A stretch of DNA of 64,000 nucleotides from NCBI RefSeq assembly GCF_027359355.1, contig NZ_CP114777.1:372001-436000 (forward strand), given 5' to 3'. Numbering within the stretch: position 1 is the stretch's first letter; every line of letters begins with the position of its first letter. The stretch is from Prochlorococcus marinus str. MIT 1214 (lineage in GTDB: Bacteria; Cyanobacteriota; Cyanobacteriia; PCC-6307; Cyanobiaceae). The notes beneath the pieces were generated by a model. The model saw only the letters and a list, made by a program, of their open reading frames with translations. It made no database searches and was not told where the DNA came from. Position numbers and translations under genes: made by a program. This document shows positions 53,676 to 61,653 of the stretch, in pieces.

Positions 53676-54362
53676 ATGAGGAAAGAGACTGATGGATCAG
53701 ATCACCTTATAAGAAATCTTGAGAGAATCTCTAAAGAAAATTCTATCTTTAATTACAAATCTGGAAGAAAAGCCTTATTAACATTAGGACAAGGAAATAT
53801 TCATGAATGGTTGGAATCACTTCTTCCCAATACGAGAATAATTTTAGAGCCGAAAATCATTGGATCAGGAATTGGAATTCAATATTTCAATGGAAAAGTA
53901 AATAAGGCAATAAATGAAAATAATCAAGACATAACAGAAAGCGTAAGATCTTTAAAAAATATACCTAACACAATACCGATTAAAAGCAAAATAGAAATCC
54001 GAGGAGTCCTATACGACGATGAAAATACATCAAATAATAATTTTGAAACTGAATTTAGAAAAATTGAAAATTTTAAACCGCAGTTAATAAGGACTAGATT
54101 CTGTGCTTTTCAAATATTTCACTGCAATATCAATCATTTTCAATCACTTCAAGAATTGAAAAATCTAAATTTTGAAATTCCTCAAACCCAATTCACAAAC
54201 TTTATTTCAGATATAGAAATCTATCTTCAATGTTGGAAAGAGGGTAAATTATTTAAACGCTATCCAACAAACGGAATAGTATTAAAAGTCAATTCAAGAA
54301 AATTGCAAAAGTATCTTGGAGAAAATAATCTATCAATACATTGGGCCTACGCAATGTATTAA
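53676..54362 (+). CDS. Degenerate stand-alone LigA adenylation-domain homologue (copy B)
   Basis: The 228-residue protein is a paralogue of the 48997 gene. ILEPKIIGSGIGIQYFNGKV holds the KxDG position as KIIG (Lys60). VRSLKNIPNTIP and KIEIRGVLY (motif III) follow. The end YPTNGIVLKVNSRKLQKYLG fits LigA motif IV (DGVVVK with D to N) and 'LGxTxxAPRWA', here NLSIHWAYAMY. Only the nucleotidyltransferase core is present. The catalytic Asp of KxDG and motif IV Asp are lost in both copies. It shares a TAATG junction with the small gene downstream. Confidence 0.78.
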   Translation: MRKETDGSDHLIRNLERISKENSIFNYKSGRKALLTLGQGNIHEWLESLLPNTRIILEPKIIGSGIGIQYFNGKVNKAINENNQDITESVRSLKNIPNTIPIKSKIEIRGVLYDDENTSNNNFETEFRKIENFKPQLIRTRFCAFQIFHCNINHFQSLQELKNLNFEIPQTQFTNFISDIEIYLQCWKEGKLFKRYPTNGIVLKVNSRKLQKYLGENNLSIHWAYAMY

Positions 54363-56445: not shown

Positions 56446-56698
56446 TTTTCTATTTTTTTATGTTCTAGCAAATTATTCATTCATTAACTTTTATTTTGAC
56501 AGCTTCAATGTAATTATCTTTTTTATTGTCTAAAAAAAATTCTCTCTGGAAATAAAAAATCTCAAAGTCAATAGAGAAAAAACCAACACTTTCTACAAAA
56601 TCTATATATGTCGCAAAAAAAAATGATTCATTAGAAACATATTTTTTCAAATGTAGGAAAAAAAATTTTTTAACAACAAAACAGTAATAAATGGAAAC

Positions 56699-56839
56699 CT
56701 AATAATCTGAAGAAGTCAAATAACTATCACCCATTAAAGTACCTGTACCTAAGTCATAAACATTATCGAGATCAGATAGGAGTTCTCTTAATTCTTCTCC
56801 ACTGATTCTTTTAATTTCTTGGTAAGTTTCTTTAGACAT
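56699..56839 (-). CDS. 46-residue acidic small protein
   Basis: It encodes MSKETYQEIKRISGEELREL followed by a short acidic, Gly/Thr-rich end (YDLGTGTLMGDSYLTSSDY). Soluble. No family recognised; frame and codon use only. Confidence 0.5.
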   Translation of the reverse strand: MSKETYQEIKRISGEELRELLSDLDNVYDLGTGTLMGDSYLTSSDY

Positions 56840-57083
56840 TAATAAAGTTAAAAATCAGATGCAAATTTAACCACTCACAATTGGCCTCAGAGACCGTAAA
56901 TACCGATAGGGGTAATTGCCTTTCGATATACTGAATTAAAAAAATGATAGAGAAATTTATCCTACATAAATTTACTAATCAAAACGATAACCAAAATATG
57001 GATGAGTCAATGAATTAGACATTAAGTACATATTCCTACACGGCTGACAGTGGTTTGTTCTTATATTTTTTGAACTTCTCAGG

Positions 57084-57127
57084 ACAACCTTCTTTTTATA
57101 CTGAGCTTTAGAAGGTTGTTTCTTTGA
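57084..57127 (+). terminator. Hairpin with U-rich tail
   Basis: A perfect 10-base inverted repeat ACAACCTTCT / AGAAGGTTGT (arms 57084-57093 and 57110-57119) is followed by TTCTTTG. It looks like an intrinsic terminator for a plus-strand transcript or the first hairpin of the RNA-like region that follows. Confidence 0.6.
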
Positions 57128-57134
57128 ATAAAAA

Positions 57135-57322
57135 ACGTCAGTGCTCCTCCCCAGAAGCCAATCAATTGATGACCAAAACAATTGATTGCCTGACGTACAT
57201 TTATCCTAAATTTTCCTTTTCTTCAATGGTTCTGTAGGACCGTACGTCTTGGGTAGGGAAACCGTAGAAATAATAATCACATTTAATTAGACATTTAAAA
57301 AGGGCCTCAGGGGGCCCTTTTT
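57135..57322 (+). ncRNA. Candidate structured small RNA with nested hairpins and terminator
   Basis: The ~190-base stretch has no convincing coding frame but dense, nested complementarity. An outer stem ACGTCAG/CTGACGT (57135-57141 with 57190-57196) encloses a perfect 10-base stem CAATCAATTG/CAATTGATTG (57159-57168 with 57179-57188). The 5' strand carries GCTCCTCCCC unpaired. A second nested hairpin joins GACGTAC/GTACGTC (57192-57198 with 57242-57248) and TCCTA/TAGGA inside it. The two outer stems share bases and are mutually exclusive. GGGTAGGGAAACC follows, then the terminator at 57297. The CU-rich loop resembles anti-Shine-Dalgarno loops of cyanobacterial sRNAs such as Yfr1, but it is not Yfr1. 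Confidence 0.5.
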
Positions 57323-57323
57323 C
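57297..57323 (+). terminator. Strong intrinsic terminator
   Basis: A perfect 10-base stem AAAAAGGGCC / GGCCCTTTTT (57297-57306 and 57313-57322) has a six-base loop and A and T runs on both sides, so it could act in both directions. It is the strongest terminator in the window. No protein gene ends here, which suggests that it terminates a non-coding RNA. Confidence 0.85.
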
Positions 57324-57450
57324 TTTACCGATTCTTTGGAAGCTTCTGGATATTGGTGGCCTGGGGCCAAGTGTCTAGTAGAAAGGCTTTTTTTCTCCGT
57401 TAGGGCACCTAAACGATGCAGAGGAGTTTCGACTGAATTGACGCACCTAA

Positions 57451-57630
57451 ATCATTGATCCTTGTCGCATCAGACGAATAGCCTACTTATTCATTGAGAA
57501 TGTTGGAGCAGGAACCAGAATTCAGTTCGCTTCTCTTAAATACTCAGGTGGAGTGTCGACCATCAATGGTGCCTCTGAGCTCAACAAACGTATCTTTGCT
57601 CTATTCGCACCTCAACGCAATCAGCCTTAA
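57451..57630 (+). pseudogene. Open frame without start, possibly a gene remnant
   Basis: After a TAA at 57448 the frame is open for 59 codons to TAA at 57628. Its second half reads like protein (NVGAGTRIQFASLKYSGGVS, then TINGASELNKRIFALFAPQR) and is visibly richer in G and C than the neighbouring DNA. No ATG, GTG or TTG start lies ahead of that part. It may be the end of a decayed or transferred gene. I do not recognise the family. Confidence 0.35.
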
Positions 57631-57710
57631 TGCCCATTGCATTTCCACTTAACCTGATCAAAAATAGTAAGTTTGGGGTCTATAATTTTTTCTCATATCA
57701 AGTCGCAGAT

Positions 57711-58016
57711 ATGTCGAGAGATAAAACAAGTAAACAAGAACAAATAAGCATTTTTGGAGAAATAGCTAAAGGATGTACAACTGATCCTCAAAAAATTAAA
57801 TTTTTCAATTCATCTAAGGAAGCATTCTTCATTGATGCAGTTTTAGAATCGCTCTAGGTTAATGAAAATATTCCTAAAGATTTAGACGACGGATTTAACG
57901 TTTACGCAAATATGAAAAAACCAAATGAAACGCAGCTTAAAGAATTGAAAAGTCTAAATTGGTACGAATACCCAAAAAACCTTAAAATATTTTTTGATTT
58001 TTGCATCATAAATTGA
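57711..58016 (+). pseudogene. Small gene interrupted by an in-frame TAG
   Basis: From ATG 57711 the frame encodes MSRDKTSKQEQISIFGEIAK ... EAFFIDAVLESL and stops at TAG (57855-57857). The same frame then continues for 52 codons without a stop (NENIPKDLDDGFNVYANMKK ... LKSLNWYEYPKNLKIFFDF) to TGA at 58016. Both parts have protein-like, helical, evenly charged sequence. The likely intact product is about 100 residues. This is either a recent nonsense mutation, stop readthrough, or a sequencing error. The ~275 bases after it hold only tiny frames. Confidence 0.55.
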
Positions 58017-58292
58017 GATGCATATTCAAAATACTTCCACTATTGAAAGTAAGCGTAGTGATTTTCTAATACGATCCGTTTAGGGAGGGAACATGACAAG
58101 TTCTTGGATTGGCTTACGGAAATTCCTCTAACACGAAATTATTAATGGCTCGCGATAATGTATTAGATAATTTAGATAAAAAATCATGTGTTACGAGAAC
58201 TGCAGAACCTTGTCTCTAGTCTTGAGGATCCACATTGATTTGGTATAAATAAAGAATTAAATCAAAAGATGAGTCTCAATAAAATCTGAACA

Positions 58293-58608: not shown

Positions 58609-59112
58609 TTAACTAATCAAAGCGATTGCTTCTTTTAATTCTTTCGCATGATTGATCTCATCTTGAGCAATTTCACGTATCCTCTGATCGTTTGGATTAA
58701 CGGTTAGATACTTTGCATAAGTTTCATACGCATGCTCTTCAATTTTTATATTGATATCGTATGCATTGGATGGAGATAGCAAGTAATAAAAAACCATTAC
58801 CCAGTAATAGAAGAGCACTAAATGCCTAGCAAGAAATCGATCAACCCAATATCTATTGCCGCTTCGTGATTCCATCTCTTCTAAATGCTCCGTCTCATTG
58901 ATTGCTTGGTAAAAATGAGCCTTCATGAGCTTGTTGCTTAAAGGAGTCTTTAGGCCAAGCGATTCTTGTAAATGCAAAACTGATAAGAATGCAAAATAAG
59001 GTGCTCTAGCGATTACCTCAAGAACCCAAAAACGTTGAATCGGTCTACCTTCGTAGATCCGATCAAGAATACTTACACTAAAATCTAAAACAAATGAATT
59101 AAAACCTTTCAT
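58609..59112 (-). CDS. ptox: Plastoquinol terminal oxidase (AOX/PTOX family)
   Basis: The 167-residue protein carries the complete di-iron set of alternative oxidases: Glu32 in LEVIARAPYF, Glu73 and His76 in NETEH, Glu125/126 in KIEEHAYETY, and Glu152 and His155 in DEINH. Two hydrophobic stretches (~35-45 and 97-112) place it on the membrane surface. PTOX oxidises plastoquinol with O2 and relieves over-reduction, useful in iron-poor or high-light water. The length is short, as in picocyanobacteria. The gene stands alone. Confidence 0.93.
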   Translation of the reverse strand: MKGFNSFVLDFSVSILDRIYEGRPIQRFWVLEVIARAPYFAFLSVLHLQESLGLKTPLSNKLMKAHFYQAINETEHLEEMESRSGNRYWVDRFLARHLVLFYYWVMVFYYLLSPSNAYDINIKIEEHAYETYAKYLTVNPNDQRIREIAQDEINHAKELKEAIALIS

Positions 59113-61075: not shown

Positions 61076-61372
61076 TTAAAAAATGCCAGGAATAATTTGT
61101 CCAGTAGTGATATAAGCGCCTAGTAAAGCAATCATTCCGATCATTGCCCAACGACCATTCGTCTTTTCCGCTTCTTCGGGATAGCTGGAATAGTTTTCAA
61201 CTAATTGAGTTTGTACTTGGGTAGCAAACATGTTTTGCTTGCCATATTCAGTAATGATCTGGTTAGAAGCAGAACTGTAAGCAGGGATTCCTGTTGGATC
61301 AACAGATTGACCTTCTGATTGATTATCAATTGGAACTATTGATTGATCAGAAACTGGGTTACTAGAAGTCAT
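61076..61372 (-). CDS. hli: High-light-inducible protein with long N-terminal extension, 98 residues
   Basis: The last 40 residues are the HLIP (EAEKTNGRWAMIGMIALLGA, then YITTGQIIPGIF) with E, N and R ligand positions intact. The first ~55 residues are polar, Ser/Gln-rich and likely disordered, unlike the other short copies. The ATG at 61372 is preferred to a longer frame. It follows the 35-residue copy by eight bases. Confidence 0.9.
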   Translation of the reverse strand: MTSSNPVSDQSIVPIDNQSEGQSVDPTGIPAYSSASNQIITEYGKQNMFATQVQTQLVENYSSYPEEAEKTNGRWAMIGMIALLGAYITTGQIIPGIF

Positions 61373-61380
61373 ATAAGAAC

Positions 61381-61488
61381 CTAAAAAATACCTGGAATGA
61401 TTTGACCTGTTGTTGCGTAAGCACCGAAAGCAGCAATAAAGCCGATCATTGCCATCCAACCATTAAACTTTTCTGCTTCTGGAGTCAC
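61381..61488 (-). CDS. hli: High-light-inducible protein, 35 residues, GTG start
   Basis: It begins with GTG: (M)TPEAEKFNGWMAMIGFIAAF and GAYATTGQIIPGIF. It differs at three positions from the first gene of the other hli operon. The longer in-frame stretch up to 61626 is not conserved and is rejected. An HLR1-like element lies 27 bases ahead of the start. Confidence 0.9.
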   Translation of the reverse strand: MTPEAEKFNGWMAMIGFIAAFGAYATTGQIIPGIF

Positions 61489-61514
61489 GAGATTAAACTC
61501 AAATAATGGCAATG

Positions 61515-61543
61515 AATGTAAAGGAAAAGTAAAGGAATGTAAA
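61515..61543 (-). promoter_or_regulatory. HLR1-like triple half-site of the second hli unit
   Basis: Minus-strand TTTACATT (61536-61543), then CC, TTTACTTT, TCC and TTTACATT. The first pair fits the HLR1 spacing with one mismatch (TTTACTTT), and a third half-site follows after three bases. Position relative to the start codon is like that of the site at 52098, so both hli units are likely RpaB targets. Confidence 0.65.
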
Positions 61544-61653
61544 GGGGTCACCCGTACACAGCAAAAGTTATCAGGGTTATTAGCTGAAGCAATATTTTTT
61601 ATCCACGGTCTAAATAATAATTCCACTAACTTTGTTGAACTTAATTCAACTAG

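Follow-up and report, generated by a model that had tools for sequence, protein, structure and literature searches.

The left RNA of the region described here is read as a clade-specific small RNA gene, encoded on the plus strand and sharing a terminator with a convergent, Yfr103-like RNA containing a micro-ORF, the two lying within a 661-bp converted module found at two loci; we put the probability of this reading at roughly 60%. The region belongs to a window of 64,000 nucleotides (G000:C1:372001-436000) from a genome of 1.93 Mb. Its most interesting content is the convergent neighbor and not the left RNA. The left RNA would be transcribed from its own -10-like element and would end at a hairpin that works both ways, such that the minus-strand RNA, in which a Shine-Dalgarno site precedes a predicted ORF of ~8-14 codons, would end there too. 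Both genes would constitute one module, its two loci separated by ~10.6 kb and homogenized by gene conversion. Relevant coordinates are provided in Table 1.

Table 1. Features of the block and of related loci (positions are those of the window unless a locus is named).
Feature	Position	Strand	Details
661-bp block	57022-57682		second copy at G000:C1:439599-440259, ~10.6 kb downstream, beyond the window
TATATT, -10-like element of the left RNA	57062-57067	+	putative, from sequence; predicted start near 57075
Left RNA	57075-57322	+	~248 nt; the element of the original prediction; fold z score, conservation, covariation
Hairpin H1, conserved loop ...UACUGAGCUUU	57084-57119	+	96.1% of alignment cells paired
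Stem A	57135-57196	+	paired in 98.7% of cells, never with changes on both sides
C-rich patch CTCCTCCCC	57144-57152	+	becomes runs of C in other genomes
Hairpin H2, arms CAATCAATTG/CAATTGATTG	57159-57188	+	two pairs with two-sided changes
Stem B	57192-57248	+	96.1% of cells paired; no two-sided change; excludes stem A
Terminator hairpin with A-run and T-run	57297-57322	both directions	repeat and fold data; probably common to both RNAs
Convergent structured RNA, very probably Yfr103	57297-57655	-	~360 nt; R1 model, alifold
Micro-ORF MVDTPPEYLREAN*	57522-57563	-	predicted, 13 codons; conservation of start and Shine-Dalgarno site
GAGG, Shine-Dalgarno-like site of the micro-ORF	57572-57575	-	sequence match
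-10-like site of the minus-strand RNA	57661-57669	-	TACTAT at 57669-57664, or TATTTT at 57666-57661 if the register of other copies is followed
55-aa Cys-rich protein gene with leader	L039 3579-3972; L050 3274-3628	-	two genomes of the genus

Concerted evolution of a duplicated block

A self-BLAST search revealed that the two copies of the block form a direct repeat with 99.5% identity over 661 bp (three mismatches). The stretch singled out in the original prediction, 57084-57323, corresponds to the left part of this block and is doubled in relatives as well. That prediction was right to flag an RNA at this place; it described a smaller element and contains neither the duplication nor the convergent RNA nor the micro-ORF. 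Matches were observed in 30 of the 41 genomes of the genus; those of G009 and G030 are partial only, leaving 28 genomes with a full or near-full block, from which 44 copies were taken. The genus is placed in the low-light NATL group of Prochlorococcus on the assumption that G002 is NATL2A. When a sample of 251 genomes from the family was searched with the left RNA at an E-value of 0.01, 23 genomes gave matches. Sixteen of these belong to the genus (15 full, one partial), and the seven matches outside of it span at most 47 nt each. The 47-nt match in G057 lies in an apparent coding frame and was set aside as chance.

Both copies could be placed in 14 genomes, one copy having window-like flanks and the other scoring 0 against them. 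The distance between the copies within a genome has a median of 0 and a maximum of 4.8% (G001), versus a median of 5.7% between genomes, and in the tree 13 of the 14 within-genome pairs are sisters. G002 and G007, which are not part of this set of 14, also contain both copies, with identities of 97.4%, and 99.8% over 594 bp, respectively. The block copies show concerted evolution, most simply explained by gene conversion, and the module would represent a clean case in which a streamlined genome holds two RNA genes identical through conversion.

A phage origin for the block was considered and rejected on the basis of a phage collection, which gave no match to the block, and of viral contigs, which gave none to a 21-base pattern from the left RNA. 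The viral contigs did yield six matches to the pattern for the core of the convergent RNA, but these were read as chance because the two conserved blocks never occur together in them and the peptide is missing. No match to the core was found in plasmids.

An alternative-oxidase protein and a high-light-inducible-like ORF are encoded near the first copy (58609-59112 and 61076-61626, both on the minus strand). The second designation is our own, with Pfam matches below the cut-off or absent; a photoprotection context is possible. In a 228-aa ORF on the plus strand (53676-54362), the adenylation domain of an NAD-dependent DNA ligase is present only in part.

The left RNA

Perfect 10-base arms were located at 57084-57093/57110-57119, 57159-57168/57179-57188, and 57297-57306/57313-57322. 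Two 7-base stems accompany them, namely stem A (ACGTCAG at 57135-57141 with CTGACGT at 57190-57196) and stem B (GACGTAC at 57192-57198 with GTACGTC at 57242-57248). All five are positioned exactly as originally predicted. Stems A and B are mutually exclusive because both require 57192-57196. The plus strand of the 240-nt stretch from 57084 to 57323 folds with an energy of -63.8 kcal/mol, as compared to -48.4 kcal/mol (sd 3.8) for 200 shuffled sequences (z score of -4.1), and not one of the 200 reaches the energy of the native sequence. The minus strand scores similarly (z score of -4.4), and thus folding alone does not give the strand of the RNA.

Conservation and covariation were assessed with an alignment of 33 distinct sequences. 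Near-invariant are the TATATT element, with only two of the 33 sequences lacking one T, the loop of hairpin H1, and the flank of the C-rich patch. In L028, as in the leader paralogs described below, the stem of H1 is rebuilt with different bases while the loop is kept. In hairpin H2, one base pair shows two-sided changes in 4 of 33 sequences and another in 7 of 32 scored. The H2 loop (57166-57182, alignment A2) occurs in two dissimilar versions, GATGACCA... and ATCGCCCTTGG..., with the stem retained. No ORF with a Shine-Dalgarno site is conserved among the 33 aligned sequences, and a small ORF within the left RNA was dropped as a candidate for that reason. Frames without such a site are open, beginning with TTG (18 codons in 28 of 33, 37 codons in 20 of 33) or ATG (22 codons in 24 of 33). 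The originally proposed structured RNA on the plus strand is thus supported by a conserved -10-like element, by two hairpins with compensatory changes, and by the lack of a conserved ORF bearing a Shine-Dalgarno site.

It could be argued that 57084-57296 simply constitutes the 3' surroundings of the minus-strand RNA, with no gene of its own and only the terminator being of importance. Indeed, what other clades have in common with the stretch is a hairpin adjoining that RNA, whereas the rest of the left RNA was not found outside of the genus in the family sample. The near-invariance of the -10-like element, H1, and the C-rich flank, together with their recurrence in leader paralogs that have no second RNA, makes such an explanation improbable.

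These paralogs are partial, diverged copies of 57054-57161 located elsewhere in four genomes of the genus, G002, G006, G030, and G037. The 5' part of the left RNA is 80% identical to the leader in G006 over 110 aligned columns and 85% identical to that in G002 over 72. The counterpart of TATATT is TACTAT in three of the four and TACTAC in the fourth. In both G002 and G006 the paralog lies upstream of, and on the same strand as, an ORF for a 55-aa Cys-rich protein. When read by eye, G030 has an altered start codon and G037 shows no ORF. The best Pfam match for the protein was ZZ with an E-value of 0.0047, which is below the cut-off. The protein is found in 32 of 201 family genomes and is absent from that of the window. 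The leader part found no match at 23 loci in other genera that have the protein gene, and hence copying may have proceeded in either direction. The arrangement of the leader paralogs supports a plus-strand assignment of the left RNA as well as a modular history.

The same data may be read differently, however, with the left RNA as the orphan leader of an mRNA for the small Cys-rich protein. The leader would have been copied to a site beside the second RNA gene, its ORF would have been lost, the shared terminator would stand in place of that ORF, and the remnant would be kept mainly through gene conversion of its neighbor. The identities to the two leaders, the altered start codon and missing ORF in G030 and G037, and the lack of the protein gene in the window's genome would all fit such a history. 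We nevertheless regard it as rather unlikely, given that the leader part is unmatched at the 23 loci in other genera and that the pairing of H1 and H2 is kept in most of the 33 sequences, which would not be expected for a passive relic.

For the left RNA as a gene in its own right, two conformations are energetically available. When the 33 sequences were folded, stem A had a probability above 0.5 in 13 and stem B in 19, and the median energy gap of 0.9 kcal/mol favors stem B. In a prefix fold of the window transcript, extending to 57215, stem A forms. The switch-like layout originally proposed is therefore borne out with respect to two near-isoenergetic states, but no compensatory changes maintain either stem, an outcome that the original prediction itself named as counting against it. 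RNAalifold gave a covariation term of +0.12 for alignment A2, and thus no gain. As read by eye, two of the four leader paralogs have an intact stem A, another has it with a single mismatch, and in the last it is broken, whereas none of them shows stem B. Switching is possible, but a need for both states is not shown by evolution.

The C-rich patch had been described as single-stranded and CU-rich. This holds in the stem A state for CCCC and for two single bases, with the remainder being paired. There, as judged from the prefix fold, the patch lies within the stem A loop as a weak local hairpin of two plus three pairs, and in the minimum-energy fold of the window sequence it pairs with ~57251-57258. 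The repeats, folds, copies, homogenization, hairpin covariation, convergent RNA, and ORF conservation are established computationally, and we infer transcription, strand use, targets, and switching of the left RNA to be as follows. The molecule would be an sRNA that acts in trans and has two folds of nearly equal energy. Stem A would form first during transcription, thereby placing the patch in a weak and easily opened hairpin. Once opened, the patch could meet purine-rich ribosome-binding sites, and stem B with its accompanying pairing would hide it. A trans-acting role is possible; the drift of the patch toward plain runs of C, poor for a specific seed, speaks against it. A riboswitch, the other role first suggested, is unsupported in the strict sense because, within the block, the terminator is followed by the convergent RNA and not by a plus-strand gene. 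Only the leader paralogs of G002 and G006 occupy the position expected for a riboswitch-type leader.

With respect to known RNAs, the 64-kb window contains no match to the Rfam 15 families at the gathering cut-off. From 56600 to 58100, only four sub-threshold Rfam matches were observed, with E-values up to 1, and these were taken as chance. The accessible part of PMC7368042 reports Yfr106, Yfr107, and Yfr108 as sRNAs of NATL2A, a strain of the low-light clade, seen on a northern blot, and the left RNA could be one of the three. It also resembles Yfr6/Yfr14, which the available portions of PMC2518516 and PMC1242208 describe as a long structured sRNA with a 5' part common to mRNA leaders. A relationship to Yfr6 was rejected, however, given that BLAST comparisons with SS120 yfr6 at its published coordinates gave E-values of 0.65 for the left RNA, 0.035 for the block, and 0.074 for the G006 leader, none of which is significant. 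No match to yfr6 was found in the 64-kb window.

A convergent RNA on the minus strand

The remainder of the block, 57335-57655, was detected by DNA searches in 179 of the 251 family genomes. With the R1 model, built on a plus-strand alignment and hence antisense to the RNA as now read, this number rose to 222 of 251, representing 55 of 59 genera. When 242 genomes sampled across the class were searched, 29 matched, and all 29 belong to the same family. As many as 10 copies are present in one genome (G103, R1 model). Three Yfr103-like copies in G114 (C1:2268037, 2268487, and 2268937) form a tandem array with a spacing of exactly 450 bp.

The copies used to define the strand are loci fetched in this analysis, not a random sample, and exclude the diverged high-light form; among the 145 with full flanks, 65 have a terminator-like hairpin 3' of the core versus one past the other end. 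Following removal of copies more than 85% identical, the corresponding numbers are 26 and 1 of 80. Under the strict definition used, more than half of the copies have no terminator. Among 115 alignable copies, 70 have a -10-like site, which is no excess over shuffled sequences (64.6, sd 5.9); in 47 of the 70, however, the site precedes the GCAATG hairpin by 25-26 nt. The alifold consensus for 82 sequences scores -79.3 on the minus strand versus -73.9 on the plus strand, with 20 shuffles of each at about -12. On the basis of the 3' hairpins, the -10 spacing, the slightly better consensus fold, and the micro-ORF described below, the core most likely lies on the minus strand.

Given that the conserved core is located directly downstream of the left RNA as read on the plus strand, it was thought at first that the left RNA might be a leader or attenuator controlling that core through termination at the hairpin. 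The micro-ORF with its Shine-Dalgarno site, the terminators, and the consensus fold all place the core on the minus strand; this idea was dropped, and it is now considered highly improbable.

From the minus-strand placement of the core, it follows that the hairpin most likely terminates the convergent RNA as well as the left RNA. The original statement that no gene ends at this terminator is correct for the plus strand, but on the minus strand the conserved RNA most likely does so. A simple terminator scan did not list 57297-57323, yet the hairpin is present in the fold; in our view, it was missed because the T-run is part of the stem. A terminator-type hairpin within ~90 nt of the core end was also observed in the AT-rich loci compared. 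Direct pairing between the left RNA and the minus-strand RNA was rejected, with 48 of 200 shuffled sequences giving energies as low. The left RNA would be a clade-specific partner to be examined for a regulatory link with the convergent RNA.

Identity and coding potential of the convergent RNA

The genome designated G245, which we take to be Synechococcus CC9605, contains exactly seven pattern matches and seven model matches for the convergent RNA. With seven copies in this presumed CC9605 genome, the RNA is therefore very probably Yfr103. Copy numbers in G050, G002, and G268, presumably SS120, NATL2A, and CC9902, are one, two, and four, respectively, and G050 displays a yfr6-like sequence at the place published for SS120. 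G117, assumed to be MIT9211, also has a copy. The left RNA is a neighbor of Yfr103 and not Yfr103 itself.

According to PMC5069720, Synechococcus CC9605 has seven Yfr103 paralogs with lengths of 290-328 nt, and the RNA is treated as non-coding and of enigmatic function. It is called there the most abundant ncRNA of picocyanobacteria, its seven paralogs accounting for 55.2% of the CC9605 mdRNA-Seq reads in one sea sample. Homologs are listed for SS120, NATL1A/2A, and MIT9303/9313, and the RNA is assigned to marine Synechococcus and low-light Prochlorococcus; MIT9211 is absent from this list in the part of the paper available (PMC5069720). ORFs in G245 that we read as phycoerythrin-like lie at 420-430 kb, and a start site of the CC9605 phycobilisome cluster is given at 425184 (PMC5069720, available part). 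The convergent RNA resembles Yfr103 as there described in being ~300 nt or more in length, structured, and multicopy, with seven copies in the putative CC9605 genome. It differs in its conserved micro-ORF, in its ~360 nt to the terminator, and in its weak high-light homologs, which do not appear in the list of that paper (PMC5069720, available part). The core measures ~300 nt, and the distance from predicted start to terminator, ~360 nt in the window, is greater in Synechococcus. The longer predicted transcript and the copy in G117 weigh against an identity with Yfr103, which we nevertheless regard as very probable. For Yfr103 an imperfect palindrome is given at -29 to -58; in a single G245 copy (L090), one of ~30 nt was noted by eye at roughly that place, upstream with respect to the minus strand.

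On the minus strand of the window, GAGG is followed after eight bases by ATG GTC GAC ACT CCA CCT GAG ... TGA (57563-57522). Of 132 distinct copies, which like those above come from loci fetched in this analysis and do not include the diverged high-light form, seven have no anchor motif. In the remaining 125, an in-frame start within 30 nt is found in 122 (ATG in 113, TTG in nine) and is missing in three, and a Shine-Dalgarno match of at least four bases is found in 121. Two control frames have starts in only 10 and 7 of the 125. In a check with 147 copies, 139 were anchored, 136 had the start, and 134 had the Shine-Dalgarno match, with 10 and 8 starts in the other frames. For 80 non-redundant copies (85% identity or less), the values were 75, 72, and 71, with 8 and 6 in the other frames.

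Codon variation was examined in 133 copies, 129 of them anchored. The T codon is ACT in 71, ACG in 32, ACC in 17, and ACA in three. The first P codon is CCA in 115, CCC in 11, and CCG in three, and the second is CCT in 105, CCC in 13, CCG in three, and CCA in three. As can be seen, the changes fall mainly on third positions and are synonymous. The encoded peptides are of the type M-(T)-x-D-T-P-P-E and mostly contain 8-14 residues; a few outliers have 7 or 24-41, and the C-terminal parts vary freely. These comparisons provide strong evidence that selection acts on the coding frame. The convergent RNA would thus not be purely non-coding, and a peptide of ~8-14 residues is probably translated.

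Few photosynthetic cells are as numerous as those of Prochlorococcus and marine Synechococcus. With a ribosome-binding site and a micro-ORF that are both conserved, the enigmatic Yfr103 ncRNA would become a testable dual-function RNA or tiny mRNA. We lean slightly toward the view that Yfr103 is translated and dual-functional, that its ORF for M-(T)-x-D-T-P-P-E... is among the shortest conserved in bacteria, and that in one clade it is locked by conversion to a two-state RNA with a common terminator. Yfr103 might, for example, engage ribosomes, with the short proline-proline peptide stalling or buffering them. In the literature on micropeptides and on abundant picocyanobacterial RNAs, with subscription sources largely outside of the coverage, no report of an ORF in Yfr103 was found.

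The peptide of RNAIII contains 26 aa and SgrT contains 43 aa, both longer than the product of this micro-ORF, and to our knowledge multicopy homogenized genes are not a feature of dual-function sRNAs of the SgrS/RNAIII type. Like SgrS and RNAIII (PMC2518516, PMC5126843), the convergent RNA combines the structure of an sRNA with a Shine-Dalgarno site and a short ORF.

A diverged homolog, in which GGAGG precedes MIDSLPEISE*, occurs at three loci (L231-L233), that of G133 being positioned at G133:C1:957013-957157. The genomes involved, G133, G154, and G271, are presumed to be high-light Prochlorococcus strains.
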